A DNA stretch of 64,000 nucleotides from a virus. Below, in pieces: positions 2,939 through 49,058 of this stretch. The notes under the pieces were generated by a model, which ran no database searches, was not told the origin of the DNA, and saw only the letters and a list, made by a program, of their open reading frames with translations. The DNA is taken from positions 95,042 through 159,041 of the IMG/VR virus record IMGVR_UViG_3300021197_001995; one strand, written 5' to 3'. The number at the start of each line of letters is the position of its first letter. Position 1 is the first letter of the stretch. Both the position numbers and the translations under genes were made by a program.

Positions 2939-3792
2939 AAACAATTTTGGGCATAGGTACAGCAGGAAGTAATGTTGTGCGCCAACTCGGAGAATATAAA
3001 ACATACAAGCCGTATACGATTTGCACAGAAAATCAAAAAACTACGAAATACCATTTCAATTTACCATCACTCGACGGACCAGAAGAGTATGAAGAAATGA
3101 ACATGTCAAAGCTAACCAAATGGTTGGGTACAATCGAAAAAAGCTGCACAGTTTTTATCTGTGGAGCATCTAATTCATCGGGTATTACGTTACGAGCGCT
3201 CCACTCTCTGCACCAAAGAGGTGTAAAAATGGAAGTTGTGTATTTTATGCCTGAAACCGAGGTGTTATCTGAAGAGAAGACCCTGCAAGAACGCGCTTGT
3301 CGTGGTATTCTGCAAAATTATGCGCGCAGCGGCTTATTTGAAAAAATCTGTCTCGTATCCAACCTTCGGTTGGAGGAGATAGCGGGATCAACGAACGTAT
3401 TTGACTACTATAGCCAAATAAACCATGTGTTTACAAGCACTTACTACATGATGGATGTCTTTAGGAACACAAAGCCGATTACATCCACATTTAAGCGACC
3501 AAAGGAATCTTGCCGGATTACCACTATCGGACTGGGATCATTAGAGAAAGACGATTTAATGTTTTTTCCTTGCAATCGAGAGGTAGAAGTGGTATACTAT
3601 TATGGTATCAACGAAGAAAAGTTAAAGACGGAAGAAAACTTATTCAGAACAATAACCAACAAGGTAAAATCAAGAATCACCGATGAAACAAAGGTTTCGT
3701 TTGGGATTTATCCAACACAATACGAAGATGACTACATTTACGTGGAATACTTCTCACCAAAAATTCAACAAATAGTTGTTGACACAGAATAG
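2935..3792 (+). CDS. Divergent FtsZ/tubulin-like protein
   Basis: 285 aa from TTG 2935, which has AAGGAG eight bases upstream and overlaps the polymerase stop. The order of elements resembles FtsZ: an N-terminal nucleotide-binding strand and loop (ILGIGTAGSN, residues 4-13), a degenerate glycine loop CGASNSSG (76-83) where FtsZ has GGGTGTG, then a helix-strand-asparagine segment (RACRGILQNY..LVSNLRLEEI, about 120-149) matching the region that ends in N-D/N-R-L. I see no T7-loop NxDxxD, so GTP hydrolysis may be lost. The assignment is by pattern, not by search. A Rossmann-like protein of another family is the alternative. Confidence 0.55.
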   Translation: MKTILGIGTAGSNVVRQLGEYKTYKPYTICTENQKTTKYHFNLPSLDGPEEYEEMNMSKLTKWLGTIEKSCTVFICGASNSSGITLRALHSLHQRGVKMEVVYFMPETEVLSEEKTLQERACRGILQNYARSGLFEKICLVSNLRLEEIAGSTNVFDYYSQINHVFTSTYYMMDVFRNTKPITSTFKRPKESCRITTIGLGSLEKDDLMFFPCNREVEVVYYYGINEEKLKTEENLFRTITNKVKSRITDETKVSFGIYPTQYEDDYIYVEYFSPKIQQIVVDTE

Positions 3793-4653: not shown

Positions 4654-5787
4654 ATGGCAAAAGCTAAAGTTACCAAACTTAAAAAGGGCGCTTTAGATAT
4701 TGCTTCTATTCGAGGCATTATCAACAAGAAAGCCGGTAGAGAAGTTGCTCACTCACTTCAGGATAATAATCCAACAGAGGTGAATGAGTGGATTCCTACT
4801 GGCTCACGATGGCTTGACGCCATCATTTGCAAGGGCAGACACGCTGGCATCCCTGTGGGTAAAATCTCAGAGATAGCCGGCCTTCCCGGTACTGGTAAGT
4901 CATTCTTGGCTGCCCAGATTGCTGGGAACGCTCAAAAGATGGGTATTGATGTAGTGTACTTTGATTCAGAGTCCGCTATTGACCCTTCTTTTATGGAGCG
5001 CGCCGGTTGCGACTTAGACAGGCTTATGTATGTCCAAGCAGCATCTGTTGAGTTTGTCTTGGAAACCATCGAAGAACTACTAGCTACTGGTAACAAGTGG
5101 CTTTTCATTTGGGACTCTTTGGCTCTTACGCCCTCGATTTCTGATGTTGAAGGCGACTTCAATCCGCAGTCTTCTATGGCGGTAAAGCCTAGAATCTTGG
5201 CTAAGGGAATGTCTAAGTTGACTATCCCCATCGCTGATGCAAACGCTACTTTTCTAGTCCTCAATCAGTTGAAGACTAACCTAGGAGCGAGAACGCCAGC
5301 CCAAGCCATGACTGAACCATACACGACCCCAGGTGGAAAGGCTATGATTTATGCTTATTCACTTCGTGTTTGGCTCACCGCAAGAAAAGCCAAAGCTAGT
5401 TTCATCGTTGATGACAATGGTTTCCGCATTGGATCTGAAGTAAAGGTAAAGTTAGAGAAGTCTCGTTTCGGGACTCACGGCCGAACCTGCAACTTCAAGA
5501 TCCTGTGGGGAGATGATGCTGTTGGTGTCCAAGATGAAGAAAGTTGGTTCGATGCAATCCAAATCTCTGAAAGACTTGAACAGTCTGGTGCATGGTTTAC
5601 GCTAATCCACAATGATGGGTCTAAGGAAAAGTTCCAGCGCAAACAATGGGTCACTAAACTTGAGAGTGAAAAATTCAGAGAAAGTGTCTTGACTATTATT
5701 GAAGAAGATGTTATTATGAAGTTCAAGAATAGAGAAGGCAACGCAGGCGACTTCTACGAGCCGGATGAAATTCCGACCGAAGAGTAG
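4654..5787 (+). CDS. RecA/UvsX-type recombinase
   Basis: 377 aa with Walker A GLPGTGKS (residues 76-83), the conserved E-S region VVYFDSESAIDPSF, Walker B FIWDS (151-155) and the NQLKTNLGARTPAQ-like L2 loop followed by TTPGGKAMIYAYSLRVWL. This is the ATP-dependent strand-exchange protein that works with SSB in recombination-dependent replication and repair. It is in one operon with the SSB gene and is closed by a strong intrinsic terminator ten bases after its stop. The C-terminal 80 residues are acidic. Confidence 0.92.
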   Translation: MAKAKVTKLKKGALDIASIRGIINKKAGREVAHSLQDNNPTEVNEWIPTGSRWLDAIICKGRHAGIPVGKISEIAGLPGTGKSFLAAQIAGNAQKMGIDVVYFDSESAIDPSFMERAGCDLDRLMYVQAASVEFVLETIEELLATGNKWLFIWDSLALTPSISDVEGDFNPQSSMAVKPRILAKGMSKLTIPIADANATFLVLNQLKTNLGARTPAQAMTEPYTTPGGKAMIYAYSLRVWLTARKAKASFIVDDNGFRIGSEVKVKLEKSRFGTHGRTCNFKILWGDDAVGVQDEESWFDAIQISERLEQSGAWFTLIHNDGSKEKFQRKQWVTKLESEKFRESVLTIIEEDVIMKFKNREGNAGDFYEPDEIPTEE

Positions 5788-25438: not shown

Positions 25439-27007
25439 ATGACCACACAACTCAGCCACGGAACTGAACTCCGCAATAAAGTTCTTGAAGGCGTAAACAC
25501 TCTGGCGGATTATGTAGCAACAACGCTTGGACCAAAAGGTCAAAACGTACTCATTCACGAAAAGGGCCGAAGCCCGTTTGTGACTAAAGATGGAGTCACG
25601 GTCGCACAGAGTATAAACTTTGAAGACCCGCACGTTAATGCAGGAGCACAGGTTGTAAAGCAAGTTTCAGCCCAAACAAACGCGGAAGCTGGAGACGGTA
25701 CCACCACAAGTACCGTATTAGCCAGAGAAATACTTTCTCAAGCGAACAAACACATCGCTTCAGGGGTATCTCCCATAGAAATCAAAAGAGGCCTAGAACA
25801 GTGCATGCTCGAAGCGACAGAGATAGTGAAGGAAATCTCTACACCGATCTCGTCCGTAGAAGATGTAAAGCACATCGCAACCATCTCGGCAAATAACGAC
25901 GAAACTATTGGAACGCTTGTCGCCACCGCAGTAGATAAGGTAGGCAAGAACGGCTCCATCACAATCGAAGAAGCACGTAGTCATGAAACGAGTTTAGATC
26001 TTGTGGAAGGATTTAGATTCTCTGGCGGATATGCAGCCACCGCATTTGTTACGGATGAAAGAAGGGGTGTTTGCAGATATGAGAACCCAATGTTCTTTAT
26101 TACTGACTCAAAGGTAGAACAGATAAACCAAATACTGCCGGCATTAGAACTAGCAGCCCGAGAAGGGCAGCCGTTTGTTATAGTTGCAGATGAAATAGAA
26201 GGTCAAGCGCTTGCTGCACTAATTATGAATACCGTTCGAGGTTCTATGAAGGTTGTGGCAATCAAAGCGCCACACTATGGTGAGCAAAGAAGAGCGATCA
26301 TGAGTGACCTAGCGGTCTCAACCGGGGCAACATTCTTCCAACAAAAGATGGGGAACAAGTTGACTGAGGTTTCTTTGAGTGATTTTGGTAAAGCAACCAG
26401 TATAGAAATCACAAAGAACATGACGACGGTTGTTGACGGGGAGGGTTCACATGAAGAAATCGACCAGACAATTGAAAAGGTTAAGGAAGAAATCAAACAA
26501 ACTGATGACATCCATGAAGCAGGGCGACTCCAAGATCGTGTTACTCGCCTCTCTTCTGGTGTTGCTATTATCCGCGTGGGTGCATCATCTCAAGTAGAGA
26601 TGATAGAAAAGAAGCACCGGATTGAAGATGCGTTAGAAGCCGTCAGATCTGCTCAGAAAGAAGGAGTGGTCCCTGGAGGTGGAACCACCTTATTGCGTAT
26701 CGCATCCGCCGTAGCTCCAAACTTCGTAAATGAAGACCAAGCTACAGCGCTCTCAATTTTCCGCCGGGCCCTCGCGGCACCATTCAGAAAGATGGCAAGC
26801 AATGCAGGAATGTCGCCGGAAGTAGCGATGTTGACAGTTCAGGAATGTAAAGAATCCGAGGGTATTGATTTCTCCACTGGAGACAAGGTTGACCTCTTAC
26901 AGGCTGGGATTATCGACCCTGCAAAAGTAACCCGCTGCGCCCTTAAGAATGCAGTATCAGTTTCTTCCACTCTTTTATTAACTAATCATAGTATTGTACA
27001 AGGGTAG
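25439..27007 (+). CDS. groL: GroEL-type chaperonin
   Basis: 522 aa. Chaperonin signatures are plain: TLGPKGQNVLI, TKDGVTVA, AGDGTTTSTVLAREI, ISANND, SLDLVEGFRFSGGY, and GVVPGGGTTLLRIA. The C-terminus ends without the GGM-type tail, making it about 25 residues shorter than E. coli GroEL. Together with the GroES-like protein at 10407 the phage appears to carry a complete folding chamber, probably for its own capsid or a large protein. The preceding sigma70-like promoter would allow independent expression. Confidence 0.94.
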   Translation: MTTQLSHGTELRNKVLEGVNTLADYVATTLGPKGQNVLIHEKGRSPFVTKDGVTVAQSINFEDPHVNAGAQVVKQVSAQTNAEAGDGTTTSTVLAREILSQANKHIASGVSPIEIKRGLEQCMLEATEIVKEISTPISSVEDVKHIATISANNDETIGTLVATAVDKVGKNGSITIEEARSHETSLDLVEGFRFSGGYAATAFVTDERRGVCRYENPMFFITDSKVEQINQILPALELAAREGQPFVIVADEIEGQALAALIMNTVRGSMKVVAIKAPHYGEQRRAIMSDLAVSTGATFFQQKMGNKLTEVSLSDFGKATSIEITKNMTTVVDGEGSHEEIDQTIEKVKEEIKQTDDIHEAGRLQDRVTRLSSGVAIIRVGASSQVEMIEKKHRIEDALEAVRSAQKEGVVPGGGTTLLRIASAVAPNFVNEDQATALSIFRRALAAPFRKMASNAGMSPEVAMLTVQECKESEGIDFSTGDKVDLLQAGIIDPAKVTRCALKNAVSVSSTLLLTNHSIVQG

Positions 27008-34765: not shown

Positions 34766-34933
34766 ATGGAATTTGGATTTATCTTTTTAATTCTCGCGAT
34801 TCTGTTTTTGCGGAACAGGATCAAGGCAGCAATCCTTCAAAGCCAGAAGGAAGATTTTGTCAGAGAAGTTATTCGCCGCGTTGACCAAAAAAAGAAACTG
34901 GATGAGCTTTATGGAAGAAATGAAGATAGGTGA
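34766..34933 (+). CDS. Single-span membrane micropeptide, 55 aa
   Basis: ATG 34766 lies just after the promoter's -10 box. N-terminal hydrophobic helix (FGFIFLILAILFL) then a charged helix ending in EDR. The final GAAGATAGGTGA also carries the start of the first KVGD gene, the same overlap style used throughout the array. Confidence 0.6.
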   Translation: MEFGFIFLILAILFLRNRIKAAILQSQKEDFVREVIRRVDQKKKLDELYGRNEDR

Positions 34934-35138
34934 CTTGGTGATTGACACTTGGCTGAACCAAGTAGCCCTCCTTATCTCTGAGCCCAGAGCATCCCTCGAC
35001 TCACAAGAAGACCAAAAGCGTTTAGGCGTCATGGCTGGAGATGAGTATTACGTTGTAGACGTACTCTTGGCCGACGGAACTAGAGATCTTGCACTCTGTG
35101 ATGACCTGGAGGCTATCAGTGAACATAGATGTGGGTGA
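34920..35138 (+). CDS. KVGD-family protein, array member 1
   Basis: 72 aa from ATG 34920. Starts MKIGDLVIDTWLNQVALLI and ends DDLEAISEHRCG; it is one of the longer members, with an insert before VVDVLLADG. No SD is visible except AAG, so it may depend on coupling to the 34766 peptide. Confidence 0.75.
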   Translation: MKIGDLVIDTWLNQVALLISEPRASLDSQEDQKRLGVMAGDEYYVVDVLLADGTRDLALCDDLEAISEHRCG

Positions 35139-35286
35139 CTTTGTGCAGTACCGCGCCGCGTCAGGCGAGGTAATGGGTTACGGAATCATTGTCAAAGTGA
35201 CTGAGTATTGGCACATACTTGTGGACCAACACACAGGCAAGAGAGAGCATTGGTGTAACACTTTAATGAGAAAGATTGTACCGTGA
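35119..35286 (+). CDS. KVGD-family protein, array member 2
   Basis: 55 aa from GTG 35119; GGAGG lies in the previous gene's end. MNIDVGDFVQYRAASGEV has two extra residues before VGD. Overlaps member 1 by 20 nt and the next peptide by 4 nt (GTGA). Confidence 0.7.
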   Translation: MNIDVGDFVQYRAASGEVMGYGIIVKVTEYWHILVDQHTGKREHWCNTLMRKIVP

Positions 35287-35420
35287 TTGATGGATTTTTA
35301 TTTGAATTTCAAATGGGAGAGATTCTAGACGCAGTGAGGTTGACTCTTTGTACCATAGGGCTCCTCACTGGCATAGGCCTTTGGGTACATGCAACTTATT
35401 TCAGGGAAGAAAAGCAATGA
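35283..35420 (+). CDS. Single-span membrane micropeptide, 45 aa
   Basis: GTG 35283 in a GTGA overlap; stop in an ATGA overlap with member 3. One hydrophobic helix (LTLCTIGLLTGIGLWVHA). It interrupts the array. Confidence 0.6.
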   Translation: MIDGFLFEFQMGEILDAVRLTLCTIGLLTGIGLWVHATYFREEKQ

Positions 35421-35599
35421 AAATTGGCGATCTAGTACGATGGCGCGCCGATGATGGAATGGGCATCATTTTGCAGACCCGAATCGTCAGCAAAATCACC
35501 GGAAGTTCTATCGTTTATGTGCTTTGGTTTGACGGAAATACAACGGGACCGATAGAAAACGACCATGATGAACTGGAGTTGGTAAGTGAAAGTCGGTGA
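35417..35599 (+). CDS. KVGD-family protein, array member 3
   Basis: 60 aa from ATG 35417. MKIGDLVRWRADDGMGIIL, then YVLWFDGN and ELELVSESR; close to the family consensus. Confidence 0.78.
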   Translation: MKIGDLVRWRADDGMGIILQTRIVSKITGSSIVYVLWFDGNTTGPIENDHDELELVSESR

Positions 35600-35753
35600 T
35601 TTGGTGAAACAAACACCGCGCTGGTCTCCCTCGCGTTTTGGTATTGTAACTCATGACCTGAAGAACGACAGGTGTATGGTCCTTTTCTTTGACACCAACA
35701 CTCAATACGATATGGACAAAAATTTGTTGGAGCTAGTCAGTGAAGGTCGGTGA
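35586..35753 (+). CDS. KVGD-family protein, array member 4
   Basis: 55 aa from GTG 35586 in the 14-nt overlap. MKVGDLVKQTPRWSPSRFG, VLFFDTN, LLELVSEGR. The Ser to Gly change in the tail is a single base change in the junction. Confidence 0.8.
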   Translation: MKVGDLVKQTPRWSPSRFGIVTHDLKNDRCMVLFFDTNTQYDMDKNLLELVSEGR

Positions 35754-35919
35754 TTTGATTGAATGGGGTATGCACTCGGTATGCCCGAAAGCTATAGTGA
35801 TTGGTTTTGATGGCGATTTCGCAAAGCTTTTCTGGCTTCCGAATCCGAGGTTCAGTAACGGGGGTAGAGTGTCACTGGTTGAAAAGCAAGAATTGGAGGT
35901 AATCAGTGAAAGTCGGTGA
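35740..35919 (+). CDS. KVGD-family protein, array member 5
   Basis: 59 aa from GTG 35740. MKVGDLIEWGMHSVCPK, AKLFWLPNP, ELEVISESR. A Cys and a Gly-rich turn are unique to this copy. Confidence 0.8.
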   Translation: MKVGDLIEWGMHSVCPKAIVIGFDGDFAKLFWLPNPRFSNGGRVSLVEKQELEVISESR

Positions 35920-36067
35920 CTTGGTGAGGTTATACCGCAACCATGACACGATTGGCATTGTCATCAGTATACTGCAAGGTAACGGGTATTTCGACGTTTT
36001 AAGGACAGACGGAGTGACAATCTTCGTCCACGAGTCATCTCTGGAGATAATCAGTGAAAGTCGGTGA
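35906..36067 (+). CDS. KVGD-family protein, array member 6
   Basis: 53 aa from GTG 35906, the shortest member and so close to the minimal fold: MKVGDLVRLYRNHDTIGIVI, YFDVLRTDG, LEIISESR. GGAGGT precedes the start. Confidence 0.82.
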   Translation: MKVGDLVRLYRNHDTIGIVISILQGNGYFDVLRTDGVTIFVHESSLEIISESR

Positions 36068-36248
36068 TTTAGTTTGTATAGCACTGCCAGCAAAGGAAAA
36101 AGGAAAGCCTGTTGGAATCATTCTCGGGTTCAGTGTTGACTGGCTTATCAACAGGTATGCTACCCCTGACTATAGAATACTGTGGAACCATGGTGGAATT
36201 AGCACCGCTTCAGAAATGCATTTGAGGAAATTAAATGAAAGTCGGTGA
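36054..36248 (+). CDS. KVGD-family protein, array member 7
   Basis: 64 aa from GTG 36054. MKVGDLVCIALPAKEKG, VGIILGFS, YRILWNHGG, and a tail LRKLNESR. The Asn tail codon makes the next start an ATG. Confidence 0.8.
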   Translation: MKVGDLVCIALPAKEKGKPVGIILGFSVDWLINRYATPDYRILWNHGGISTASEMHLRKLNESR

Positions 36249-36420
36249 TTTAGTAAAAGACAACCACCCAACAGGACAGGGGCGGACAGGAATAGTCATA
36301 GCCTCAGTACCACATTCAACCGCTCTAAATAAAGTGTTCAGGGTCTTGTGGCAAAACGGCAAAGTTGGCGACAACATCTGGGACTACGACTTGAAGCTAC
36401 TCAACGAAAAAAGGCCTTGA
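36235..36420 (+). CDS. KVGD-family protein, array member 8 (ends first sub-array)
   Basis: 61 aa from ATG 36235. MKVGDLVKDNHPTGQGR, VFRVLWQNG, and a changed tail LLNEKRP. The last codons are part of the promoter TTGACT (36417), so the stop and the -35 box coincide. Confidence 0.8.
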   Translation: MKVGDLVKDNHPTGQGRTGIVIASVPHSTALNKVFRVLWQNGKVGDNIWDYDLKLLNEKRP

Positions 36421-36445
36421 CTTTCAATGACTTACCTGCTATACT
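36417..36445 (+). promoter_or_regulatory. Sigma70-like promoter of second sub-array
   Basis: TTGACT 36417-36422, 17-nt spacer, TATACT 36440-36445. It is nearly identical in sequence to the promoter at 49055, including the end of the preceding gene. Confidence 0.82.
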
Positions 36446-36472
36446 TATAGTATAGAGAAATGGAGAAGTCAA

Positions 36473-36664
36473 ATGAAAATCGGTGATTTGGTGATGTGGC
36501 TAGACCCTTGGAAGACTAAACGCCATGGGTTGGTATTCGCGGTGATCCTGACTGATCCTGATAAGCCATGGCGAGGCAAAGAAGACTATTACGATGTGTT
36601 GGTTGACGGCAAGATTGAATTTTGCCACAGAAAAAACCTGGAGGTGCTTAGTGAAAGTCGGTGA
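36473..36664 (+). CDS. KVGD-family protein, array member 9
   Basis: 63 aa from ATG 36473 with GGAG upstream. MKIGDLVMWLDPWKTKRHG, YDVLVDGK, LEVLSESR. First gene after the promoter, so its start does not depend on an upstream overlap. Confidence 0.8.
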   Translation: MKIGDLVMWLDPWKTKRHGLVFAVILTDPDKPWRGKEDYYDVLVDGKIEFCHRKNLEVLSESR

Positions 36665-36839
36665 TTTGGTGCAGAACGGCCAAGGACACACAGGCATCGT
36701 GACAGGCATTGGCTATGCTGGCAACTGTCCGAGTTATCATGAATGTCCTTTCTTGAACCCGGATATTCACGTCGTAACCAGCCATGGCAAGAGATTGTGG
36801 AGCTACAAAGCATTGGAGGTTATCAGTGAAAGTCGGTGA
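36651..36839 (+). CDS. KVGD-family protein, array member 10
   Basis: 62 aa from GTG 36651. MKVGDLVQNGQGHTGIVTG, then an insert with two Cys (NCPSYHECPF) and a tail YKALEVISESR. Confidence 0.8.
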   Translation: MKVGDLVQNGQGHTGIVTGIGYAGNCPSYHECPFLNPDIHVVTSHGKRLWSYKALEVISESR

Positions 36840-37032
36840 CCTAGTGAAGAAGAGATGGGGCAAGATTGAACCACATCAGGCGGGGACAGTCGGCATCGTA
36901 ACCGGAAAGCACGTTGAACAACGCGGGCCCAACCCTGCGTTCCATGGCTACTGGCTTATGGTTATGTATCCGGGCCATCCTGTTTATCGTGAACGACCTG
37001 GTGAGTATGAGGTGATAAGTGAAAGTCGGTGA
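36826..37032 (+). CDS. KVGD-family protein, array member 11
   Basis: 68 aa from GTG 36826. MKVGDLVKKRWGKIEPHQ, GTVGIVTGKHV, and a Pro-rich loop before YEVISESR. Confidence 0.8.
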   Translation: MKVGDLVKKRWGKIEPHQAGTVGIVTGKHVEQRGPNPAFHGYWLMVMYPGHPVYRERPGEYEVISESR

Positions 37033-37219
37033 TTTGGTGGAATCCCACAAGGGAGCACGCGGCATTGTTGTTGAGAGTGAACTGATGTATCCGAAACATC
37101 GCGACTCTCCGGTTGGTAGAGTCCGAGTTCATTGGCAAACTGAACCACCAGAGTGGACTCACCCCGGCCTATTCTTTAGTGTAATGTCGCTCAGGAAGAT
37201 AACCAATGAAAGTCGGTGA
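37019..37219 (+). CDS. KVGD-family protein, array member 12
   Basis: 66 aa from GTG 37019. MKVGDLVESHKGARGIVVE, RVRVHWQTEP, LRKITNESR. Asn tail; the next start is ATG. Confidence 0.8.
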   Translation: MKVGDLVESHKGARGIVVESELMYPKHRDSPVGRVRVHWQTEPPEWTHPGLFFSVMSLRKITNESR

Positions 37220-37418
37220 TGTTGTGGCCTGGACACCAACCAGGGGTGTCTTCGGCCACCAGAAGGTTAAATTTGTCGGGATTGTGACGGGCGAGCGAGT
37301 AGAAAACAAATTCGGCGAGCCAGACCGGGTACCTGTGATTTGGAGTGAATCAACGATACCAATGATGACTGATGTAAGAGACGTAAAAGTTATTGAGGCA
37401 TTCAATGAAAGTCGGTGA
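37206..37418 (+). CDS. KVGD-family protein, array member 13
   Basis: 70 aa from ATG 37206. MKVGDVVAWTPTRGVFG, KFVGIVTGERV, VPVIWSEST, VIEAFNESR. Its TGIVTGE strand resembles member 11. Confidence 0.8.
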   Translation: MKVGDVVAWTPTRGVFGHQKVKFVGIVTGERVENKFGEPDRVPVIWSESTIPMMTDVRDVKVIEAFNESR

Positions 37419-37587
37419 TTTAGTTCAGTGGTACACGGAGTATGCTGATTGTACCACCACAGACTTAGGTGTCGTCCGCCAAGTTATGGTAGATCAGGTC
37501 TTTATTGTATGGCAAACTGGAGACGGAAATGGCTGGTTCAGTCAAGGACATCCAAGCATAGGAGTTATTAATCATGCAGCCGGGTGA
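37405..37587 (+). CDS. KVGD-family protein, array member 14
   Basis: 60 aa from ATG 37405. MKVGDLVQWYTEYADCTTT, VFIVWQTGDG, and an atypical tail INHAAG because the next junction is rearranged (ATGCAGCCGGGTGA). Confidence 0.78.
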   Translation: MKVGDLVQWYTEYADCTTTDLGVVRQVMVDQVFIVWQTGDGNGWFSQGHPSIGVINHAAG

Positions 37588-37768
37588 CTTGGTGGTGTGG
37601 AAATGGAATGGTAAATCACAACTTCACAAAACAGGAATCATTGTTTCAGACTACCTCCAGTGCCAAGATTTTGATGGGAATCATTATAAAAATGTTTACT
37701 GGTTCGATAATCAATGGGTCCGACCAATCAGACCAGAGTATTTAGAGGTTCTCAATGAAAGTCGGTGA
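37574..37768 (+). CDS. KVGD-family protein, array member 15
   Basis: 64 aa from ATG 37574. Starts MQPGDLVVWKWNGKSQLHK, a divergent N-terminus; regains consensus with KNVYWFDN and YLEVLNESR. Confidence 0.78.
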   Translation: MQPGDLVVWKWNGKSQLHKTGIIVSDYLQCQDFDGNHYKNVYWFDNQWVRPIRPEYLEVLNESR

Positions 37769-37955
37769 CTTGGTAAGAGAAAAAGGACTTCAGGAGCGGA
37801 CTGGTATCATTGTAGAAGATACCTTCACCAGCCGATATGATGGTGGCCGAGCGAGAATATACAAAGTGCTGTGGAACAAGTTGAGTCCAGCATCACCTAC
37901 CTTGACTAGTGGCGCGTGGGCTAATCAGTTGGAGGTCATCAATGAAAGTCGGTGA
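37755..37955 (+). CDS. KVGD-family protein, array member 16
   Basis: 66 aa from ATG 37755. MKVGDLVREKGLQERTGII, IYKVLWNKLS, LEVINESR. The middle loop is Ser/Thr/Gly-rich. Confidence 0.8.
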   Translation: MKVGDLVREKGLQERTGIIVEDTFTSRYDGGRARIYKVLWNKLSPASPTLTSGAWANQLEVINESR

Positions 37956-38142
37956 TTTGGTGAGGTTATCTCGCGGTGTAGGTAACCATTTTGACTTGGA
38001 AAGTTATGTTGCCATTTTAGTTAAGAAGCGACCAAGAGCCGACTCTTATGAGTACGACTGGATCGTTCTGACGGATGGTAGGTACATTGCACTAGGCAGA
38101 CAAATAGAACACTCCGCGAGGATACTCAGTGAAAGTCGGTGA
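37942..38142 (+). CDS. KVGD-family protein, array member 17
   Basis: 66 aa from ATG 37942. MKVGDLVRLSRGVGNHFD, YVAILVKKRP, WIVLTDGRYI, ARILSESR. Confidence 0.8.
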   Translation: MKVGDLVRLSRGVGNHFDLESYVAILVKKRPRADSYEYDWIVLTDGRYIALGRQIEHSARILSESR

Positions 38143-38329
38143 TATTGTGAGGTGGTCCCCCATAGAGGCAGCATACCATAAATCTTGTTTTGGTTCAGCC
38201 GGTTTAGACTTGACAAGTGATAGAAAATGTGGTATTATCGTAGATAGAAATCCTTATGTGTTCTTTGTTCTTTGGCAAGACAAAGAACTTTTAGCACAAA
38301 AACCAAACACAATCGAGGTAATCAGATGA
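38129..38329 (+). CDS. KVGD-family protein, array member 18
   Basis: 66 aa from GTG 38129. MKVGDIVRWSPIEAAYH, CGIIVDRNPYVFFVLWQ, and a tail NTIEVIR without the ESR end, because a lipoprotein gene follows. It contains the promoter at 38210 within its coding sequence. Confidence 0.8.
   Translation: MKVGDIVRWSPIEAAYHKSCFGSAGLDLTSDRKCGIIVDRNPYVFFVLWQDKELLAQKPNTIEVIR
38210..38238 (+). promoter_or_regulatory. Sigma70-like promoter embedded in a KVGD gene
   Basis: TTGACA 38210-38215, 17-nt spacer, TATTAT 38233-38238, inside member 18 and upstream of the lipoprotein gene at 38326. Confidence 0.7.
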
Positions 38330-38517
38330 AAAAACTAATCTTATCAACACTTCTCATTTTAACTGCCGGATGTGTTGAAGCACCAGAACGAGCAGAATAT
38401 AAATACGCATCCGAAGAAGCCTGGGACCATTGTTATGATAGTTGCCCTGGTTCTGACTGTCCTTGTATTCTTGGAGAAGGTTACACATGGTACATCAGCC
38501 CCGAGGTCGGAGAGTGA
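38326..38517 (+). CDS. Small lipoprotein, 63 aa
   Basis: ATG 38326 in an ATGA overlap. Signal peptide KKLILSTLLILTAGC with a lipobox (TAGC); the mature part has six more Cys (CYDSCPGSDCPC), so it is probably disulfide bonded in the periplasm. It could be a superinfection or surface factor; that is only context. Confidence 0.7.
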   Translation: MKKLILSTLLILTAGCVEAPERAEYKYASEEAWDHCYDSCPGSDCPCILGEGYTWYISPEVGE

Positions 38518-38729
38518 AAATTAAAGTAGGAGACTTAGTAAACATCAGGCCACACCTCGCCGGCGATGCTCACTCAGGCGAATCGAACAGTGTGATGATA
38601 CTCGAATCGAAAGTGGGTATTGTCAAGAGTAGGCTAAATGGAAACGGGTACTACGATGTCTTACTCAGTAGCGGCAAGGTTGTCTTTACCGCATACGCAA
38701 ACTTGGAGGTCATAAATGAAAGTCGGTGA
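38514..38729 (+). CDS. KVGD-family protein, array member 19
   Basis: 71 aa from GTG 38514. Extra residues at the start (MKIKVGDLVNIRPHLAG), YYDVLLSSGK, LEVINESR. First member after the lipoprotein. Confidence 0.78.
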   Translation: MKIKVGDLVNIRPHLAGDAHSGESNSVMILESKVGIVKSRLNGNGYYDVLLSSGKVVFTAYANLEVINESR

Positions 38730-38892
38730 TTTAGTGAAATACGATCATCACAACTGGTCTGACTGGTACGGAATCATACTTCGCGAAATACCAGGAACCG
38801 ATGAGAGAAGAATGGTTATGTGGAACAGGGACAATAGCGTGATAACATCGACACCGAAAAGGGATTTGGAGCTAGTCAATGAAAGTCGGTGA
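38716..38892 (+). CDS. KVGD-family protein, array member 20
   Basis: 58 aa from ATG 38716. MKVGDLVKYDHHNWSDWYG, RRMVMWNRDN, LELVNESR. Confidence 0.8.
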   Translation: MKVGDLVKYDHHNWSDWYGIILREIPGTDERRMVMWNRDNSVITSTPKRDLELVNESR

Positions 38893-39088
38893 TTTGGTCG
38901 CGCTGTCAGCGTATGGCAAGAAAGTAAAACGAACAGGTTGGGTTCAACCTGGTGACGTAGGGATTATCAAGAAGGTTAGGAACAGTATCTGGCTAACTTA
39001 TGAGATTATGTGGAATCGAAGTCGGTGGGAGTACTCCTACCATCATCAACACTGTTTTGACCGCAAAGATTTAAAGTTTGTTAAGTAG
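38879..39088 (+). CDS. KVGD-family protein, array member 21 (last of main array)
   Basis: 69 aa from ATG 38879. MKVGDLVALSAYGKKVKR, VGIIKKVRNS, YEIMWNRSRW and a basic tail KDLKFVK without the ESR end. Confidence 0.8.
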   Translation: MKVGDLVALSAYGKKVKRTGWVQPGDVGIIKKVRNSIWLTYEIMWNRSRWEYSYHHQHCFDRKDLKFVK

Positions 39089-39153: not shown

Positions 39154-39336
39154 ATGAAATTCGAGATTGGTGAAATTGTTGAAATCGAATATGGCGATTG
39201 CAACGCTGGCAAGAAAGCCGTTCTTTTGCAGTTTAATGATGACAAAGTGTTTGGCACCGGCGAGTTGGTTAAAATCATGTTCATCGGAGAGAACAAGCCA
39301 ACCTATACACTTTTAGATAGGATTGCAAAGCTATGA
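39154..39336 (+). CDS. KVGD-related small protein, 60 aa
   Basis: ATG 39154 behind GGAGG. EIGEIVEIEYGDCNAGKKAV, VKIMFIGENK, YTLLDRIAKL. A distant member with IGEIV for VGDLV. Overlaps the next gene in an ATGA junction. Confidence 0.65.
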   Translation: MKFEIGEIVEIEYGDCNAGKKAVLLQFNDDKVFGTGELVKIMFIGENKPTYTLLDRIAKL

Positions 39337-42286: not shown

Positions 42287-43354
42287 ATGGCTGTTGATTT
42301 CGCGACATTTTCTAAAATTGTTAACCATGTAACCGCAGTGCGTAAGCCTGTCCTACTTCGAGGCCGTCACGGCATCGGCAAGTCCACCGTTGTGTATCAG
42401 TTCGCTGATTCGCAGGGCATGGAGATTGTCGAACGACGTGCTTCTCAGATGACCGAGGGTGACTTGGTTGGTCTTCCAACCATTGAAGACAATTCTACAA
42501 CTTTCAACCCGCCAGACTGGTTCAAGGCTGCTTGTGACCGACCTGTTGTTTTGTTTCTCGACGAAGTTGACCGCGCTACTCTGGAGGTCCGCCAGGGTAT
42601 CTTCGAGCTTACTGATTCACGTAAGCTGAACGGTCACACTCTCCACCCAGACACGCTCGTTTTCGCAGCAGTCAATGGTGGCGACCACGGATCACAATAC
42701 CAAGTAGGTGAGATGGACCCAGCAGAACTAGACCGCTGGACAGTATTCGACATCGAACCTACAGTGGAGGACTGGCTGTCTTGGGCCAAGGACTCAGAGA
42801 TTTCTTCTGAGGTTTGGAATTTTATCAACCAGAACCGACCCCACCTCGAACACACAGATGACTTCGAGCCGAACAAGGTTTACCCTTCTCGTCGCTCGTG
42901 GGAACGTCTTGACCGATGCTTGGCTCAAGCCGGCCTGTTGGAGGAGTCCAGTCCTACACTTTACAATCTTACGTCAGCGTTTGTTGGCTTCGAGGCTGCC
43001 GTCGCTTTCAACGATTTCATTCTCAACTATGACCGACAGGTTACGACTGAGGACATCTTGGTCAAGGGTGATTTCGCCAAGGTTGCGGATTTCGGTATCA
43101 ACGACCACACTGCTATCATCGACAAGTTCGAGGCAGAGGAAATCTTCAAGGATGAGTTGGTTCAAGAGCAGGTTGATAACTTGGCTCGATACTTTGTGAT
43201 GCTTCCTTCTGAGGTTGCCATGAAACTCTGGACTGTCATGGGCAAGGGTGATGTTAACAATACTGTCAAGCTGCACAAATCAGAAGTAGACGGAGAATCT
43301 GTGTCAAAGCACTTCGTCAAGCTGATTAACGGCTCGGAAAATGACGTCAACTAA
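42287..43354 (+). CDS. MoxR-type AAA+ ATPase
   Basis: 355 aa. Walker A GRHGIGKST near residue 26, Walker B VVLFLDEVDRA, sensor-1-like LVFAAVNGGD, and the MoxR-style AELDRWTVFD arginine region. MoxR ATPases act on partner VWA proteins to fold or activate metal-containing complexes. The next gene encodes just such a VWA protein, each under its own promoter. Large phages sometimes carry this pair; the target is unknown. Confidence 0.9.
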   Translation: MAVDFATFSKIVNHVTAVRKPVLLRGRHGIGKSTVVYQFADSQGMEIVERRASQMTEGDLVGLPTIEDNSTTFNPPDWFKAACDRPVVLFLDEVDRATLEVRQGIFELTDSRKLNGHTLHPDTLVFAAVNGGDHGSQYQVGEMDPAELDRWTVFDIEPTVEDWLSWAKDSEISSEVWNFINQNRPHLEHTDDFEPNKVYPSRRSWERLDRCLAQAGLLEESSPTLYNLTSAFVGFEAAVAFNDFILNYDRQVTTEDILVKGDFAKVADFGINDHTAIIDKFEAEEIFKDELVQEQVDNLARYFVMLPSEVAMKLWTVMGKGDVNNTVKLHKSEVDGESVSKHFVKLINGSENDVN

Positions 43355-43357
43355 TAG

Positions 43358-43386
43358 TTGACAAATGCCATGAAATGTGGTATAGT
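43358..43386 (+). promoter_or_regulatory. Sigma70-like promoter for the VWA gene
   Basis: TTGACA 43358-43363, 17-nt spacer, TATAGT 43381-43386, with GGAGG just before ATG 43413. Confidence 0.85.
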
Positions 43387-43412
43387 ATATTATACAAACA
43401 ATGGAGGCTGTT

Positions 43413-44648
43413 ATGTCTGACAATAAAGAATTTGACCTCAACATGAACACCGCTCGTCTTCTCATGGACGAGCCGTTCTTTGCTGCAATCTCTCGCAGGA
43501 TTGATAAGCGAGCATCTACTGCAATCCCCACCGCTGGAGTGATGGTGAATCCCGACACCGCCCAGTTTGAGATGCTTTACAACCCAGCGTTCTTTACAGA
43601 TTTGACAGACCTTGAGCGCACCGACGTGCTCAAGCATGAATTTTATCACGTTCTGTTTGAGCACGTCACTGGTCGCTTCCCAGATGGCGTCAACATGAAG
43701 CTATGGAACATTGCCACAGACCTGGCTATCAACTCTCACCTTCACAATCTACCCAAGGGCGGACTAATTCCTGGCGAAGCCGGAACACCATTCGCAGACT
43801 TACCTAAAGGTGAGTCAGCAGAGTGGTACATGGCCAACATGCCAGACTTCAACAAGGACAAAGAAGACCAAGACGGACAGAAGGGTGAAGGTGGAGAGCA
43901 AGAGGGTGAAGGTGGTCAAGGCGGAGAGTCAGGCTCCAACCCTGGAGAGGGCGATGGTATACCTGATACACTTGACGACCACTCAGGATGGCAAGAGTGC
44001 TCTCAAGAGGTCAAGGAAATGGCCAAGGAACGCCTTAAGGATGCTGTCCGCAAGGCCGCCAATGAAGCAAGTGCCTCGAACCGTTGGGGCTCGGTATCTT
44101 CTGAAGTCCGCAAGGAAGTGATGAAGATGCTGGATACCAAGATTGACTGGCGTAAAGTTCTACGATACTTCGTCAAGTCATCACAACGAGCCGACCGTTC
44201 GAGTTCAATCAAGCGTATTAATCGTCGTTATGCTTACATTCATCCTGGTCGCAAGTCTGCTCGTGTAGCGCGCGTAGCAGTTTCAGTTGACCAGTCGGGC
44301 TCAGTGGACGATAACATGCTTGCTTTGTTCTTCGCAGAGCTTAACAAGTTGGCATCCGTTGCCGAGTTCGTGGTTGTGCCGTTCGACACTCGTGTTGATG
44401 AGAGCAAGATATTCACCTGGCGTAAGGGACAGAGCAAGGCTCCAGAGCGTGTGTTGCAAGGCGGCACAGACTTCAATGCTCCAACGGAGTATGTCAACAA
44501 GCAAGGTTTCGATGGTCACATTGTCTTAACCGACATGGGCGCGCCCAAGCCCAAGCCTAGCAAGTGCCAGCGCATGTGGATGACTACAAAACAGTATGCA
44601 GATTCTTATCACTTCGACACCAAAGAGAGGGTCGTGGCGATAGATTAA
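43413..44648 (+). CDS. Metallopeptidase-like/VWA protein partnered with MoxR
   Basis: 411 aa from ATG 43413 (GGAGG five bases away). The N-terminal domain contains KHEFYHVLFEH, an HExxH zinc-peptidase-like motif. A Gly/Glu/Gln-rich linker with DGIPDTLDDHSGW follows, then a VWA domain with MIDAS-like VDQSGSVDD and a second Asp in VVPFDTRVD. This architecture matches DUF2201-type proteins found beside MoxR ATPases. A structured non-coding region follows the stop. Confidence 0.85.
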   Translation: MSDNKEFDLNMNTARLLMDEPFFAAISRRIDKRASTAIPTAGVMVNPDTAQFEMLYNPAFFTDLTDLERTDVLKHEFYHVLFEHVTGRFPDGVNMKLWNIATDLAINSHLHNLPKGGLIPGEAGTPFADLPKGESAEWYMANMPDFNKDKEDQDGQKGEGGEQEGEGGQGGESGSNPGEGDGIPDTLDDHSGWQECSQEVKEMAKERLKDAVRKAANEASASNRWGSVSSEVRKEVMKMLDTKIDWRKVLRYFVKSSQRADRSSSIKRINRRYAYIHPGRKSARVARVAVSVDQSGSVDDNMLALFFAELNKLASVAEFVVVPFDTRVDESKIFTWRKGQSKAPERVLQGGTDFNAPTEYVNKQGFDGHIVLTDMGAPKPKPSKCQRMWMTTKQYADSYHFDTKERVVAID

Positions 44649-47003: not shown

Positions 47004-47234
47004 ATGATTCGCTCCAAAGCAGAGAAGCCGCCACAAAAGCTAGAGATAGATCTTACTGGACCAGAAGGTAACGCTTATGTTCTCATGGGTTACGCAGAGA
47101 GGTGGGGCAGACAACTAGGTTATAGTAGCCATAAAATCAAGAGCATAATTGACGAGATGAAGTTGACCAACTACGAAGGCTTGCTTTACACTTTTGACCG
47201 CGAGTTCGGAAGTTTTGTGACGTTATGGAGATAA
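47004..47234 (+). CDS. Unrecognised small protein, 76 aa
   Basis: ATG 47004 with GAAAGG upstream. LEIDLTGPEGNAYVLMGY, then a helix GRQLGYSSHKIKSIIDEM, then YEGLLYTFDREFGSFV. Looks like a compact phage domain; first gene of its operon, overlapping the next by 10 nt. Confidence 0.65.
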   Translation: MIRSKAEKPPQKLEIDLTGPEGNAYVLMGYAERWGRQLGYSSHKIKSIIDEMKLTNYEGLLYTFDREFGSFVTLWR

Positions 47235-47428
47235 AAGTAGGAGATACAGTGACCATGGACCCGGGCTGTCAGCCTCCTGGTCTTTATGGGGTGGGCCTAA
47301 TCGTGCGTATTTTCCCCTGTGAGGACAACTGGTCTGGTCCTTCTCGTGCAACTGTTTATTGGCAAGCCAACGGTAAACCGCGCTTTGGTAGGTGCTCAAC
47401 TCGATACTTGTTAAGGTGGGTGAAATGA
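47225..47428 (+). CDS. KVGD-family protein, second cluster
   Basis: 67 aa from ATG 47225. MEIKVGDTVTMDPGCQ, VGLIVRIFP, TVYWQANGK, and a basic tail YLLRWVK. Confidence 0.75.
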   Translation: MEIKVGDTVTMDPGCQPPGLYGVGLIVRIFPCEDNWSGPSRATVYWQANGKPRFGRCSTRYLLRWVK

Positions 47429-47616
47429 TAAAAGTAGGTGACTTGGTAAGAATGCCCCCTAATCCTTCGTATTGGTGGGGAGGGCAAGTTGGTATAATTG
47501 ATATTGTAGAACCAGAGGGCAGCAGTTATGTTCAGTATCGTGTATGTGTTCCAGGTATCGGTTTCGCTCGCTTTGGCGATGTGACATTTGTGGAGGTGCT
47601 GAGTGAGAGTCGGTGA
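47425..47616 (+). CDS. KVGD-family protein, second cluster
   Basis: 63 aa from ATG 47425 in an ATGA overlap. MIKVGDLVRMPPNPSYW, VGIIDIVEPE, VEVLSESR, so it ends with the array-type junction. Confidence 0.78.
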   Translation: MIKVGDLVRMPPNPSYWWGGQVGIIDIVEPEGSSYVQYRVCVPGIGFARFGDVTFVEVLSESR

Positions 47617-47767
47617 TTTAGTGAGATATAATTATGACAGTCTCTGGGTAGGAAGAGTCGTGGAGCTTGGCGCGACGATGCACAAAGTTGCGTGGAACGA
47701 GAATCTGATTCATGGCAACGTAACTGAGTGGGTACCCAAGCACGCCCTGGAGATAGTGGATGAATAA
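47603..47767 (+). CDS. KVGD-family protein, second cluster
   Basis: 54 aa from GTG 47603 in the conserved 14-nt overlap. MRVGDLVRYNYDSLWVG, HKVAWNEN, LEIVDE; the tail no longer carries ESR. Confidence 0.78.
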   Translation: MRVGDLVRYNYDSLWVGRVVELGATMHKVAWNENLIHGNVTEWVPKHALEIVDE

Positions 47768-47972
47768 GGGAGACATAGTGAGATACAAGCCTTGGCCTCA
47801 CGTAGAACTGCACGCGTCAGGATGCACAGGTGTGGTCACCCGCGGACGATATATCCTCGACGGCAATGAGTATGCAATAGTTGACGTTGTGTGGTCGAAA
47901 GACAGGCCACAGTGCCCAGCAGGTAAGGTCATGTGGGAATTTGAAGATGAATTGGAGAAAATAAATGGATAA
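47760..47972 (+). CDS. KVGD-family protein, second cluster
   Basis: 70 aa from ATG 47760. MNKGDIVRYKPWPHVEL, TGVVTRGRYI, VDVVWSKDR, and a tail DELEKING. Overlaps the next gene by 8 nt. Confidence 0.75.
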   Translation: MNKGDIVRYKPWPHVELHASGCTGVVTRGRYILDGNEYAIVDVVWSKDRPQCPAGKVMWEFEDELEKING

Positions 47973-48288
47973 GAGAGAACCTTTTGAAGTGGGCGAAGAC
48001 CCGGTAAAAGCACGACGAAGGATAATGACGCAAGGCGTCAACATCCTGCATTCGCTCGTGGAATCATACAACGAAGGATTATTAGATGACCCTACTAGTG
48101 CTGCTAATCTTTGCACAATGTTTGCACTTGTTGCAGAAGGTAAGGTGACTGGCAACTTCGATGACGAAACCGGTTGCACAAAATGGAGCCTTACAGACAA
48201 TTACATGGCACGTCTTCGAGAGGCAGAAGAGATGATTTTGGGGTCAAAAATAATTAAAGGACCATGGGAGAAAACTGTTGACAATTAG
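47965..48288 (+). CDS. Helical protein, 107 aa
   Basis: ATG 47965 with TTGGAG upstream. An N-terminal basic region, then helices NILHSLVESYNEGLL and CTMFALVAEGKV. The stop codon region is the -35 box of the next promoter. No family recognised. Confidence 0.6.
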   Translation: MDKREPFEVGEDPVKARRRIMTQGVNILHSLVESYNEGLLDDPTSAANLCTMFALVAEGKVTGNFDDETGCTKWSLTDNYMARLREAEEMILGSKIIKGPWEKTVDN

Positions 48289-48306
48289 CTAAAACCCTGT
48301 TATAAT
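48278..48306 (+). promoter_or_regulatory. Sigma70-like promoter
   Basis: TTGACA 48278-48283, 17-nt spacer, TATAAT 48301-48306; full consensus. Drives 48335. Confidence 0.87.
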
Positions 48307-48334
48307 TATATTATAACAATTGAGGAGCATTTAG

Positions 48335-48535
48335 ATGGAAGCCGTTTGTATTGATTGTCACACTGACTTTAACCCAAAGCGACTTGAGCTTGGGTATCGC
48401 ACTTGTCTTGATTGTGGTTCAACCCGCGCCCTCCGCGAGATGAATCGCAAGGCAAAGTGCTCTGCGCCTGCTTATAACAAGGGCGCATACCAGTATGTTG
48501 GCTCAGTTGAGGCTGCAAGGGGAGTGGGGCGATGA
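48335..48535 (+). CDS. DksA/TraR-like zinc-finger protein, 66 aa
   Basis: ATG 48335 behind GAGGAG. CIDCHTDFNPKRLELGYRTC and LDCG form a four-Cys site spaced like DksA/TraR zinc fingers, but the coiled-coil part is missing. It may touch RNA polymerase; that is inference. It overlaps the next gene by 4 nt. Confidence 0.6.
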   Translation: MEAVCIDCHTDFNPKRLELGYRTCLDCGSTRALREMNRKAKCSAPAYNKGAYQYVGSVEAARGVGR

Positions 48536-48747
48536 AGGTTGGAGACGTCGTCTGTTTGTCTGAATATGGTATTGCCAGAGACTTCAACAGGACTATCACG
48601 AACGATGATCCTTATCAGGTCGGCGTGATCGTGAAGGAGTTCCCTGGCGAGTATCCTTACAGGGTTCATTGGATGAAAGCTACCAATGCTCGCCGGTTTC
48701 TGGTCAATTCACACTCAAGACGGGAGTTGAAGTATGCAGGTCGGTAG
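48532..48747 (+). CDS. KVGD-family protein, second cluster
   Basis: 71 aa from ATG 48532 in an ATGA overlap. MKVGDVVCLSEYGIARD, VGVIVKEFPG, YRVHWMKAT, and a tail RELKYAGR that overlaps the next start. Confidence 0.75.
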   Translation: MKVGDVVCLSEYGIARDFNRTITNDDPYQVGVIVKEFPGEYPYRVHWMKATNARRFLVNSHSRRELKYAGR

Positions 48748-48892
48748 CTTGATTAAATATTATGGCAACTGGACCGACATTGGCGTCGTATTATGGGTAA
48801 ACACCGAAGGCGGAACAGTCAAGGTCCACACCAATAATAAGATCTGCTGGTGGGTTATTAGCGGCTGCGAGGTAATCAGTGAAAGTCGGTGA
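48734..48892 (+). CDS. KVGD-family protein, second cluster
   Basis: 52 aa from ATG 48734, the smallest member. MQVGSLIKYYGNWTDIGVV, VKVHTNNK, CEVISESR. The conserved Asp of VGD is replaced by Ser. Confidence 0.75.
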   Translation: MQVGSLIKYYGNWTDIGVVLWVNTEGGTVKVHTNNKICWWVISGCEVISESR

Positions 48893-49058
48893 TTTAGTGA
48901 CATTCAAGGATACCTTCTATCGAGAGTCTTACGGCGCCGGCGTGGTACTTGAAAAGTACCACTCTTCAGATGACTATGGATTCGTGGTTCTCTTCTGCCG
49001 AGATGAGAAGGTCCATGTGCGCCAAGAAGAATTGAAAATAATCAATAAAAGTCCTTGA
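48879..49058 (+). CDS. KVGD-family protein, second cluster (last)
   Basis: 59 aa from GTG 48879. MKVGDLVTFKDTFYRES, GAGVVLEKY, VVLFCRDEK, LKIINKSP. The final codons coincide with the TTGACT of the 49055 promoter, matching the arrangement at 36417. Confidence 0.78.
   Translation: MKVGDLVTFKDTFYRESYGAGVVLEKYHSSDDYGFVVLFCRDEKVHVRQEELKIINKSP

Follow-up and report, generated by a model that had tools for sequence, protein, structure and literature searches.

Tandem genes for small predicted barrel proteins in uncultured marine phages share a coding start/stop joint and reassort as cassettes

The window analyzed here, a 64,000-nt stretch of DNA, includes part of the accessory region of a large uncultured marine phage, in which small genes stand head to tail. 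From the listing of open reading frames and re-annotation we count 21 genes of one family (KVGD), all on the + strand between 34920 and 39088 and each encoding 53-72 aa. The earlier note, which had placed about 21 genes of one small family here, was accurate in count, position, and family assignment. We refer to one such gene, about 150-200 nt long and encoding a predicted SH3/KOW-like barrel protein, as a cassette. The array opens with k01 (34920..35138; 72 aa, MKIGDLV...), which has relatives at 43-46% in contigs L016, L058, and L046, followed by k02 (35119..35286; 55 aa), whose start is degenerate (NIDVGDF). The array is impure, since two unrelated small ORFs on the same strand lie inside it with 4-nt overlaps: a 45-aa membrane-protein-like passenger from outside the family, overlapped on either side (35283..35420), and a 63-aa lipoprotein-like passenger (MKKLILSTLLILTAGC; 38326..38517).

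Between the passengers lie k03 (35417..35599; 60 aa), whose body is 98% identical in L181; k04 (35586..35753; 55 aa), present in L033 and L084 at 96-97% DNA identity with unrelated flanks; k05 (35740..35919; 59 aa), a 66% relative of which accounts for the one-cassette difference between L183 and L184; k06 (35906..36067; 53 aa); k07 (36054..36248; 64 aa); and k08 (36235..36420; 61 aa). The last is of a cassette type that ends in a promoter, with its stop codon within the -35 hexamer of a sigma-70-like promoter on the + strand (36417..36445; TTGACT, 17 nt, TATACT, extended -10). Beyond the promoter come k09 (36473..36664; 63 aa), the widely shared k10 (36651..36839; 62 aa), which overlaps its predecessor and its successor by 14 nt each, k11 (36826..37032; 68 aa), k12 (37019..37219; 66 aa), k13 (37206..37418; 70 aa), k14 (37405..37587; 60 aa), k15 (37574..37768; 64 aa), k16 (37755..37955; 66 aa), k17 (37942..38142; 66 aa), and k18 (38129..38329; 66 aa). 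After the second passenger, k19 (38514..38729; 71 aa) is followed by k20 (38716..38892; 58 aa), matched in L084 by a body 95% identical in amino acids and a gene 90% identical in DNA, and by k21 (38879..39088; 69 aa), the conserved right-hand end. A remoter family-like gene (39154..39336, +) marks the right flank. A second, shorter KVGD cluster (47225..49058, +) has like junctions, is interrupted by other genes, and has members at 47225, 47425, 47603, 47760, 48532, 48734, and 48879. The same phage encodes a UvsX/RecA-like recombinase (4654..5787, +; phrog_97, E 1e-59).

Members adjoin one another directly at 18 joints, and at 16 of these the overlap is exactly 14 nt; the other two are the first joint (k01/k02), with a 20-nt overlap, and the 52-nt gap at 36421-36472 that bears the promoter. 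The 14-nt overlap, (G/A)TGAAAGTCGGTGA, provides the start and MKVGD codons of the downstream gene and, in the other frame, ESR and the stop of the upstream gene, while the Shine-Dalgarno site of each overlapped start sits within the preceding gene. An example on the + strand at 35575..35605 has GTGAAAGTCGGTGA at 35586-35599 and a purine-rich ribosome-binding region in the upstream gene. The motif RTGAARRTHGGTGAYNTNRT, with one mismatch allowed, occurs 22 times in the window, always on the + strand; chance is rejected as its origin, as 100 dinucleotide shuffles gave an expectation of 0.01 and none contained more than one. The promoter gap follows only k08-type cassettes within the array, and the promoter is kept behind the k08-type cassettes of L144, L181, L183, and L184.

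Why should proteins with different bodies end alike? The same nucleotides that open the next gene encode, in a different frame, the C-terminal ESR tail. Across partly redundant loci, 440 of 503 genes with a 14-nt overlap at their end have this tail, versus 23 of 466 genes without one. Fourteen nucleotides is also the modal overlap in loci fetched by protein rather than by junction (484 of 654 close neighbors, partly redundant). The Gly codon is GGT at 501 of 501 overlapped starts, partly forced by the stop, versus 270 of 375 other starts, and its share in the large genes of the phage is 28%. For Val, GTC is used at 387 of 501 overlapped starts (77%) against 21% in the genome, so that by codon usage the likeness of the joints goes beyond what the protein needs. 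The ends are nearly identical in DNA, as the earlier note had held, and the identical protein ends across the family result from the overlap of DNA and translation, not from protein function. Conserved termini of this kind are a warning against reading such ends as protein function.

The bodies, said earlier to differ, do so strongly, with a median pairwise identity of 23% and a maximum of 42%. The SH3/KOW-like fold that had been proposed gains support from profile matches to Spt5 KOW (E 2e-4), eL21, and uL24, and from AlphaFold2 models of k06 (pLDDT 93.4) and k10 (pLDDT 86.9), each with five strands and the latter with a 17-residue loop; on these models, the members share a predicted five-stranded barrel of about 50 residues. 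The k06 barrel reaches query TM-scores of 0.8-0.9 against Spt5 and NusG domains, and the fold also matches Tudor domains by which UvrD and Mfd bind RNA polymerase. Against solved structures, Foldseek E-values are 0.001 or higher, a common outcome with small barrels. No family for the set was recognized in Pfam, PHROGs, or NCBIfam: one member matches DUF4537 weakly (E 1.5e-4), and by the curated profile cut-off the members fall outside the KOW domain family. PADLOC detected no defense system, curated models of known defense and anti-defense families gave no convincing match, and the Pfam Tad2-like match concerns one member only (E 0.09). Could the array then supply many versions, for dosage, of a single kind of KOW-like nucleic-acid or ribosome binder, acting for example on host transcription or translation? 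The profile and fold matches just listed speak for it. Isoelectric points from 4.1 to 9.9, however, argue against a single nucleic-acid-binding role; the Foldseek E-values and the many functions of SH3 barrels also count against it. A single biochemical role for all members is doubtful, and we regard this explanation as rather unlikely.

Relatives were gathered by a junction-pattern scan and by single-protein scans of viral contigs. In IMG/VR, 16 records have such arrays and share DNA polymerase III, and mostly also UvsX and GroEL, at 53-99% identity. All relatives are metagenome-assembled contigs, in which mis-assembly at repeats is possible, although it is less expected here because a repeat of 20-40 nt is shorter than the usual assembly k-mers and the replaced blocks differ in sequence. 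Neither near nor distant nucleotide searches found relatives of the array among cultured phages, nor did tblastn with two members, and the core proteins are only 28-43% identical to those of named phages. Among bacterial and archaeal genomes, 11 stretches turned up in assemblies derived from metagenomes and assigned to scattered taxa; some of these resemble binned phage contigs, one being equal in length to an IMG/VR contig, and we therefore assign no host.

Order within the array is permuted. An identical fixed order in all relatives, which the earlier note had named as evidence against its reading, is firmly rejected: Kendall's tau is close to zero in the three relatives tested (0.00 for L084, 0.07 for L181, and 0.05 for G008), and these include the closest relative found, L181 (PolIII 94%, UvsX 99%). 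Orthologous cassettes 85-98% identical occupy permuted positions, and where cassettes are 85-97% identical in DNA, flank identity falls to background more than 20 bp away. Of 90 cassette pairs, which are not independent of one another, 59 have unrelated sequence on both sides. Some positions are steadier: k18 and k21 lie fairly fixed at the right end, and a k21-type gene closes the array ahead of core genes in L125, L182, and L189. Might such arrays have arisen by tandem duplication and divergence in one lineage, through unequal crossing-over, with the constant ends as translational relics and no traffic between phages? One family, set head to tail with the same frame shift at every joint, would fit, as would the two k10 copies of L181 (89% identical) and the extra cassette of L022, a 72%-identical paralog of another cassette in the same array. 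Yet neighboring members are 24% identical, no closer than other pairs, which disfavors duplication alone; highly similar cassettes recur in permuted order between unrelated flanks; and the use of GTC at the joint exceeds the protein's need. This history seems very improbable to us.

Exchange can be seen directly in five pairs of near-identical contigs. Among their 12 structural differences, nine are the gain, loss, or replacement of a whole cassette with both edges in the junction; two lie outside KVGD genes (215 bp in L146/L147 and one block of about 350 bp in L203/L205), and one is an array block with an ambiguous edge. Over 58 kb, G001 matches G002 at 99.85-99.99% identity, and their sole large structural difference is a 176-bp cassette bordered on each side by the 20-nt repeat ATGAAAGTCGGTGATTTGGT; point differences between them are 7.9-fold denser in KVGD genes. 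An independent one-cassette difference separates L183 from L184, and blocks have been replaced in L084/L184 and L193/L194. All 18 edges of the nine blocks lie within -20 to +23 nt of a KVGD start. The earlier proposal of recombination at the constant junctions is supported by these cassette-sized differences together with the permuted order and the unrelated flanks. The position of the edges could instead reflect selection against chimeric bodies rather than a preference of recombination. A further possibility is an integron-like system, with the junction serving as attachment site for an integrase or other recombinase; one conserved joint, a single orientation, and the gain and loss of single cassettes agree with this. 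However, translation signals fully account for the joint, the repeats shared at the edges are not of one length (20 and 40 nt), which fits homology-driven exchange, and tracts of point differences within cassettes resemble gene conversion. We give a site-specific system little credence, and exchange driven by homology is more likely than an integrase.

Does this exchange serve to create new proteins? The divergence of bodies within one phage, and the k04 gene, which differs from its L033 and L084 counterparts by nonsynonymous changes only, might suggest a hypervariable library of targets or decoys under diversifying selection, such as fast-changing anti-defense proteins. Against this, dN/dS is about 0.13 for bodies, in pairs chosen by amino-acid similarity and not independent, so diversifying selection is not supported overall. 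Single cassettes have pN/pS values of 0.05 (k20), 0.13 (k08), and 0.18 (k17), k10 is conserved at 71-92% across 12 records, and the searches for defense and anti-defense families found no convincing match. Such a library is thus an improbable explanation. The bodies are under purifying selection, and the earlier suggestion that they are kept variable finds no support in that form, because individual cassettes are conserved between phages. It follows that recombination reassorts a conserved stock and does not mainly make new bodies: the array is a toolkit that is reassorted rather than a library that hypermutates.

We consider it highly probable that this is an array of cassettes for barrel proteins, reassorted between phages at a recombining joint with several purposes. 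In this reading a single element of 20-30 nt does three jobs. It ends the upstream protein, with the TGA stop inside the GGT-GAY codons for Gly-Asp; it begins the downstream protein, with a Shine-Dalgarno site followed by GTG or ATG and KVGD; and it provides the homology common to cassettes at which recombination occurs. A homologous-recombination or annealing function of phage or host would drive the exchange, for which the UvsX-like recombinase of this phage is a candidate. Transcription would begin at early sigma-70-like promoters, including one that accompanies the k08 cassette, and translation of the array genes would be coupled.

What might the proteins do? Our tentative suggestion, made with somewhat less than even confidence, is that they are putative binders acting early in host takeover, with the variable loops of each barrel dedicated to a particular target, much as RNA polymerase or ribosomes are bound by SH3/Tudor-type domains in NusG, UvrD, and Mfd. 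By reassortment, a phage line could then swap its tool set quickly between hosts. If this is true, the arrays supply modules by the hundred that are small, conserved, and open to testing, as well as a route to link cassette content with host range. Tiny genes of uncharacterized role abound in phage accessory regions, and their fast exchange is a long-standing question; here, since nearly identical genomes differ by one entire cassette, the sequence itself reveals the unit of exchange, the joint, and recent events.

In the literature searched, which excluded most subscription papers, we found no description of such an array. The predicted five-stranded barrel is that of the NusG CTD, Spt5 KOW, the UvrD and Mfd Tudor domains, and Bacillus subtilis YorP, but the KVGD proteins stand alone at 53-72 aa, belong to no named family, and have variable loops. 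In integron arrays, cassettes of one gene each follow one another head to tail across a constant joint and are gained, lost, and re-ordered. The KVGD array resembles them in each of these respects and differs in that its joint is coding and translational and is accounted for by overlapping codons. It is conceivable, though we would not put it at even chances, that this is an undescribed integrase-free cassette system akin to the integron but driven by coding-sequence homology. The nested start/stop overlap would be a universal joint across an uncultured marine phage clade, any cassette, with a ribosome-binding site of its own, could be placed in frame after any other, and hundreds of conserved host-interaction proteins would form one shared, recombining pool.

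The PeSL, or mobile regulatory cassettes, of T4-type phages are reportedly short repeated regulatory elements, an intergenic promoter with a stem-loop between unrelated small accessory genes, and are said to serve large phages as common stretches of homology at which modules are shuffled. Here, too, small genes are shuffled between related phages at a repeated element. In contrast to an intergenic early promoter with a stem-loop terminator, however, the KVGD joint lies in coding sequence as a start/stop overlap with a ribosome-binding site, and it connects members of one protein family. Mosaicism in lambdoid phages involves phage-encoded recombination of diverged DNA (homeologous recombination; PMC2327257), and similarly uses short or imperfect homology, but it includes neither a one-family array nor a single recurring joint through which every cassette could be linked to every other. 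In Cluster K mycobacteriophages, many small genes of one phage have a conserved short SAS/ESAS element where translation begins; the elements lie upstream of genes from different phamilies, are conserved between related phages, and have a proposed role in translation initiation (PMC3203893). Many of the KVGD genes likewise have a conserved element where the ribosome binds and translation starts, but this element overlaps both genes, encodes protein in two frames, and is a place where exchange can be seen directly. The Cluster K consensus, GGGATAGGAGCCC (PMC3203893), differs from the KVGD junction, which makes the latter an analog of SAS and not a member. PeSL cassettes and SAS elements are the nearest known ideas.

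The KVGD array occupies 34920-39088 on the plus strand of the window, which forms the final 64 kb of a 159,041 bp record; ORF listing and re-annotation place 21 genes there (k01 to k21, left to right), each encoding 53-72 aa. Almost all begin with MK(V/I)GDLV or a near variant, and 16 of the 18 direct member-to-member joints are exact 14-nt overlaps. Two genes from outside the family, one membrane-protein-like (35283, +) and one lipoprotein-like (38326, +), are fitted into the array by 4-nt overlaps. A second, shorter cluster with the same joints lies at 47225-49058, and its cassettes (each one small gene) at 48734 and 48879 are present in the arrays of related metagenomic loci (L084, L103) at 76% and 91%.

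How do neighboring genes share 14 nt? The downstream gene reads the joint, (G/A)TGAAAGTCGGTGA, as GTG-AAA-GTC-GGT-GAY (MKVGD), while the upstream gene reads it in another frame as (S/N)-E-S-R-stop, its TGA falling within the downstream Gly-Asp codons GGT-GAY. A Shine-Dalgarno-like GGAGGT lies within the LEV codons of the upstream protein. The window contains 22 occurrences of the motif, where 0.01 would be expected by chance. Among loci retrieved by protein similarity, which are partly redundant, 484 of 654 close neighbors overlap by 14 nt, and an ESR-like tail closes 440 of the 503 genes that run into such an overlap versus 23 of the 466 that do not. At overlapped starts the glycine codon is GGT in 501 of 501 cases (28% in the phage's large genes), because the upstream stop demands it. 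Valine is GTC in 387 of 501, versus 21% genome usage, a DNA-level likeness beyond the needs of either protein. Judged by sequence, the shared protein ends are a product of the joint and not of the protein. In one relative, L058, a 39-aa ORF (3454-3573, +) starts MKVGDLVKNN and continues into a membrane helix; here the joint of a cassette leads into a body from outside the family.

The junction pattern alone retrieved at least 118 stretches in IMG/VR; it is restricted to one strand per genome, and a reversed-pattern control returned none. All 16 records examined encode a relative of the DNA polymerase III alpha (62-94%), and those of sufficient length mostly also encode UvsX (66-99%) and the GroEL-like chaperonin (25439-27007; Pfam Cpn60, E 3e-69; 53-80% across the clade). 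These records make up a single clade of large phages, several of them spanning 185-204 kb. No cultured phage is closely related, the best named matches reaching ~30% (polymerase) and 43% (GroEL). Two overlapping KVGD genes also occur in CP070664.1, titled a WOR-3 bacterium chromosome (L142, 7481-7862); they may mark a prophage or a genuine host association, or come from a phage contig binned in error. Elsewhere, the window encodes a 739-aa protein in which Pfam recognizes copper-binding motifs of the MopE type and a VWA-like stretch (11449-13668). It also encodes a MoxR-type pair made up of an AAA ATPase and, after it, a DUF2201 metallopeptidase-like/VWA protein (42287-44648).

Cassettes of the window turn up again in its relatives, where body identity reaches 98% but the order is different. 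L084 reads k04, k17, k14, k20, k08, k07, k06, k18, and the order is likewise permuted in G016/L181, the closest among the matches listed (polymerase 94%, UvsX 99%); Kendall tau against the window is 0.00, 0.07, and 0.05 in three relatives. k04 and its L084 copy share 97% DNA identity, with flanks at ~20-40% past the first 20 bp, and both flanks are unrelated past 20 bp in 59 of 90 cassette pairs with flanks. The array is steadier at its right-hand end, at k21 and the 39154 homolog. L181 carries k10 twice in one array, each copy 89% identical to that of the window, a sign, on sequence, of duplication or double gain.

Near-identical contigs capture recent events. Over 58 kb, G001 and G002 agree at 99.85-99.99%, and their sole large structural difference is one whole cassette (G001 60200-60375, 176 bp), bounded on each side by ATGAAAGTCGGTGATTTGGT; other differences comprise a 6-bp indel and small tracts only. 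The density of point differences is 7.9-fold higher in KVGD genes, and one tract stops at a joint. L183 and L184 differ by a single 176-bp cassette, and between L084 and L184 blocks are re-sorted between fixed flanks (identity 98.9-99.5% left of the array, 97.8% right). Across five such pairs we counted 12 structural differences, nine of which have both edges, 18 of 18 in all, lying from -20 to +23 nt around a KVGD start; the naive chance per edge, 0.24, overstates the case, because selection against broken bodies would look alike and shared joint sequence draws alignment ends to itself. The remaining three are one array block with an ambiguous edge and two outside KVGD genes. Of these two, one is a 215-bp insertion/deletion between the near-identical contigs L146 (1378-1594) and L147, which is not a KVGD cassette, and the other is a block of about 350 bp in L203/L205.

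Are the bodies themselves changing fast? Over 95 cross-contig pairs, overlapped ends excluded, dS is 0.72 and dN 0.09; the ratio of 0.13 is biased low because pairs, which are not independent, were selected at ≥75% amino-acid identity. Single-cassette pN/pS values are in line (k20 0.05, k08 0.13, k17 0.18), and k10 is conserved at 71-92% across 12 records. By these substitution patterns the bodies are under purifying selection: the cassettes move about as conserved tools, and their bodies do not change fast.

Members share a median body identity of 23%, and their pI spans 4.1 to 9.9. Curated family searches found no family covering the set; similarity searches by sequence profile and by fold lead to barrels of the KOW, Tudor, and SH3 kinds (Spt5 KOW, E 2e-4 by profile; Spt5, NusG, YorP, and PHF1 by fold). 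AlphaFold2 models k06 as a five-stranded barrel (pLDDT 93.4) and k10 as a barrel of the same type (pLDDT 86.9), with lower certainty for the 17 residues that loop from strand 2 to strand 3. k10 matches RNA-polymerase-related Tudor domains of UvrD and Mfd, and a Lon specificity factor. The proteins may bind diverse host targets early in infection, a role that fits the variable loops, charge range, and accessory location, as well as the resemblance of the predicted barrel to domains that bind RNA polymerase or ribosomes.

A sigma-70-like promoter, TTGACT-17-TATACT (36417-36445, +), lies in the 52-nt gap after k08, whose stop codon is inside the -35 box. The promoter-like repeat TTGACTTTCA..TATACT also occurs at about 39099, 41359, and 49052, its -35 box over the preceding gene's stop, and moves with k08-type cassettes in relatives. 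KVGD genes would be expressed from early promoters, with translation of neighbors probably coupled through the nested start.

The array's anatomy, its permuted order, and whole-cassette gain and loss are directly observed. Cassettes would be exchanged at the joint through homologous recombination or strand annealing, with the phage's UvsX-like gene as a candidate driver. In working principle the array is nearest to the PeSL modular shuffling of T4-type phages, and its layout is reminiscent of an integron array. The repeated start element is nearest to the SAS of Cluster K mycobacteriophages (PMC3203893). Unlike both PeSL and SAS, the KVGD joint codes in two frames and links members of one family.
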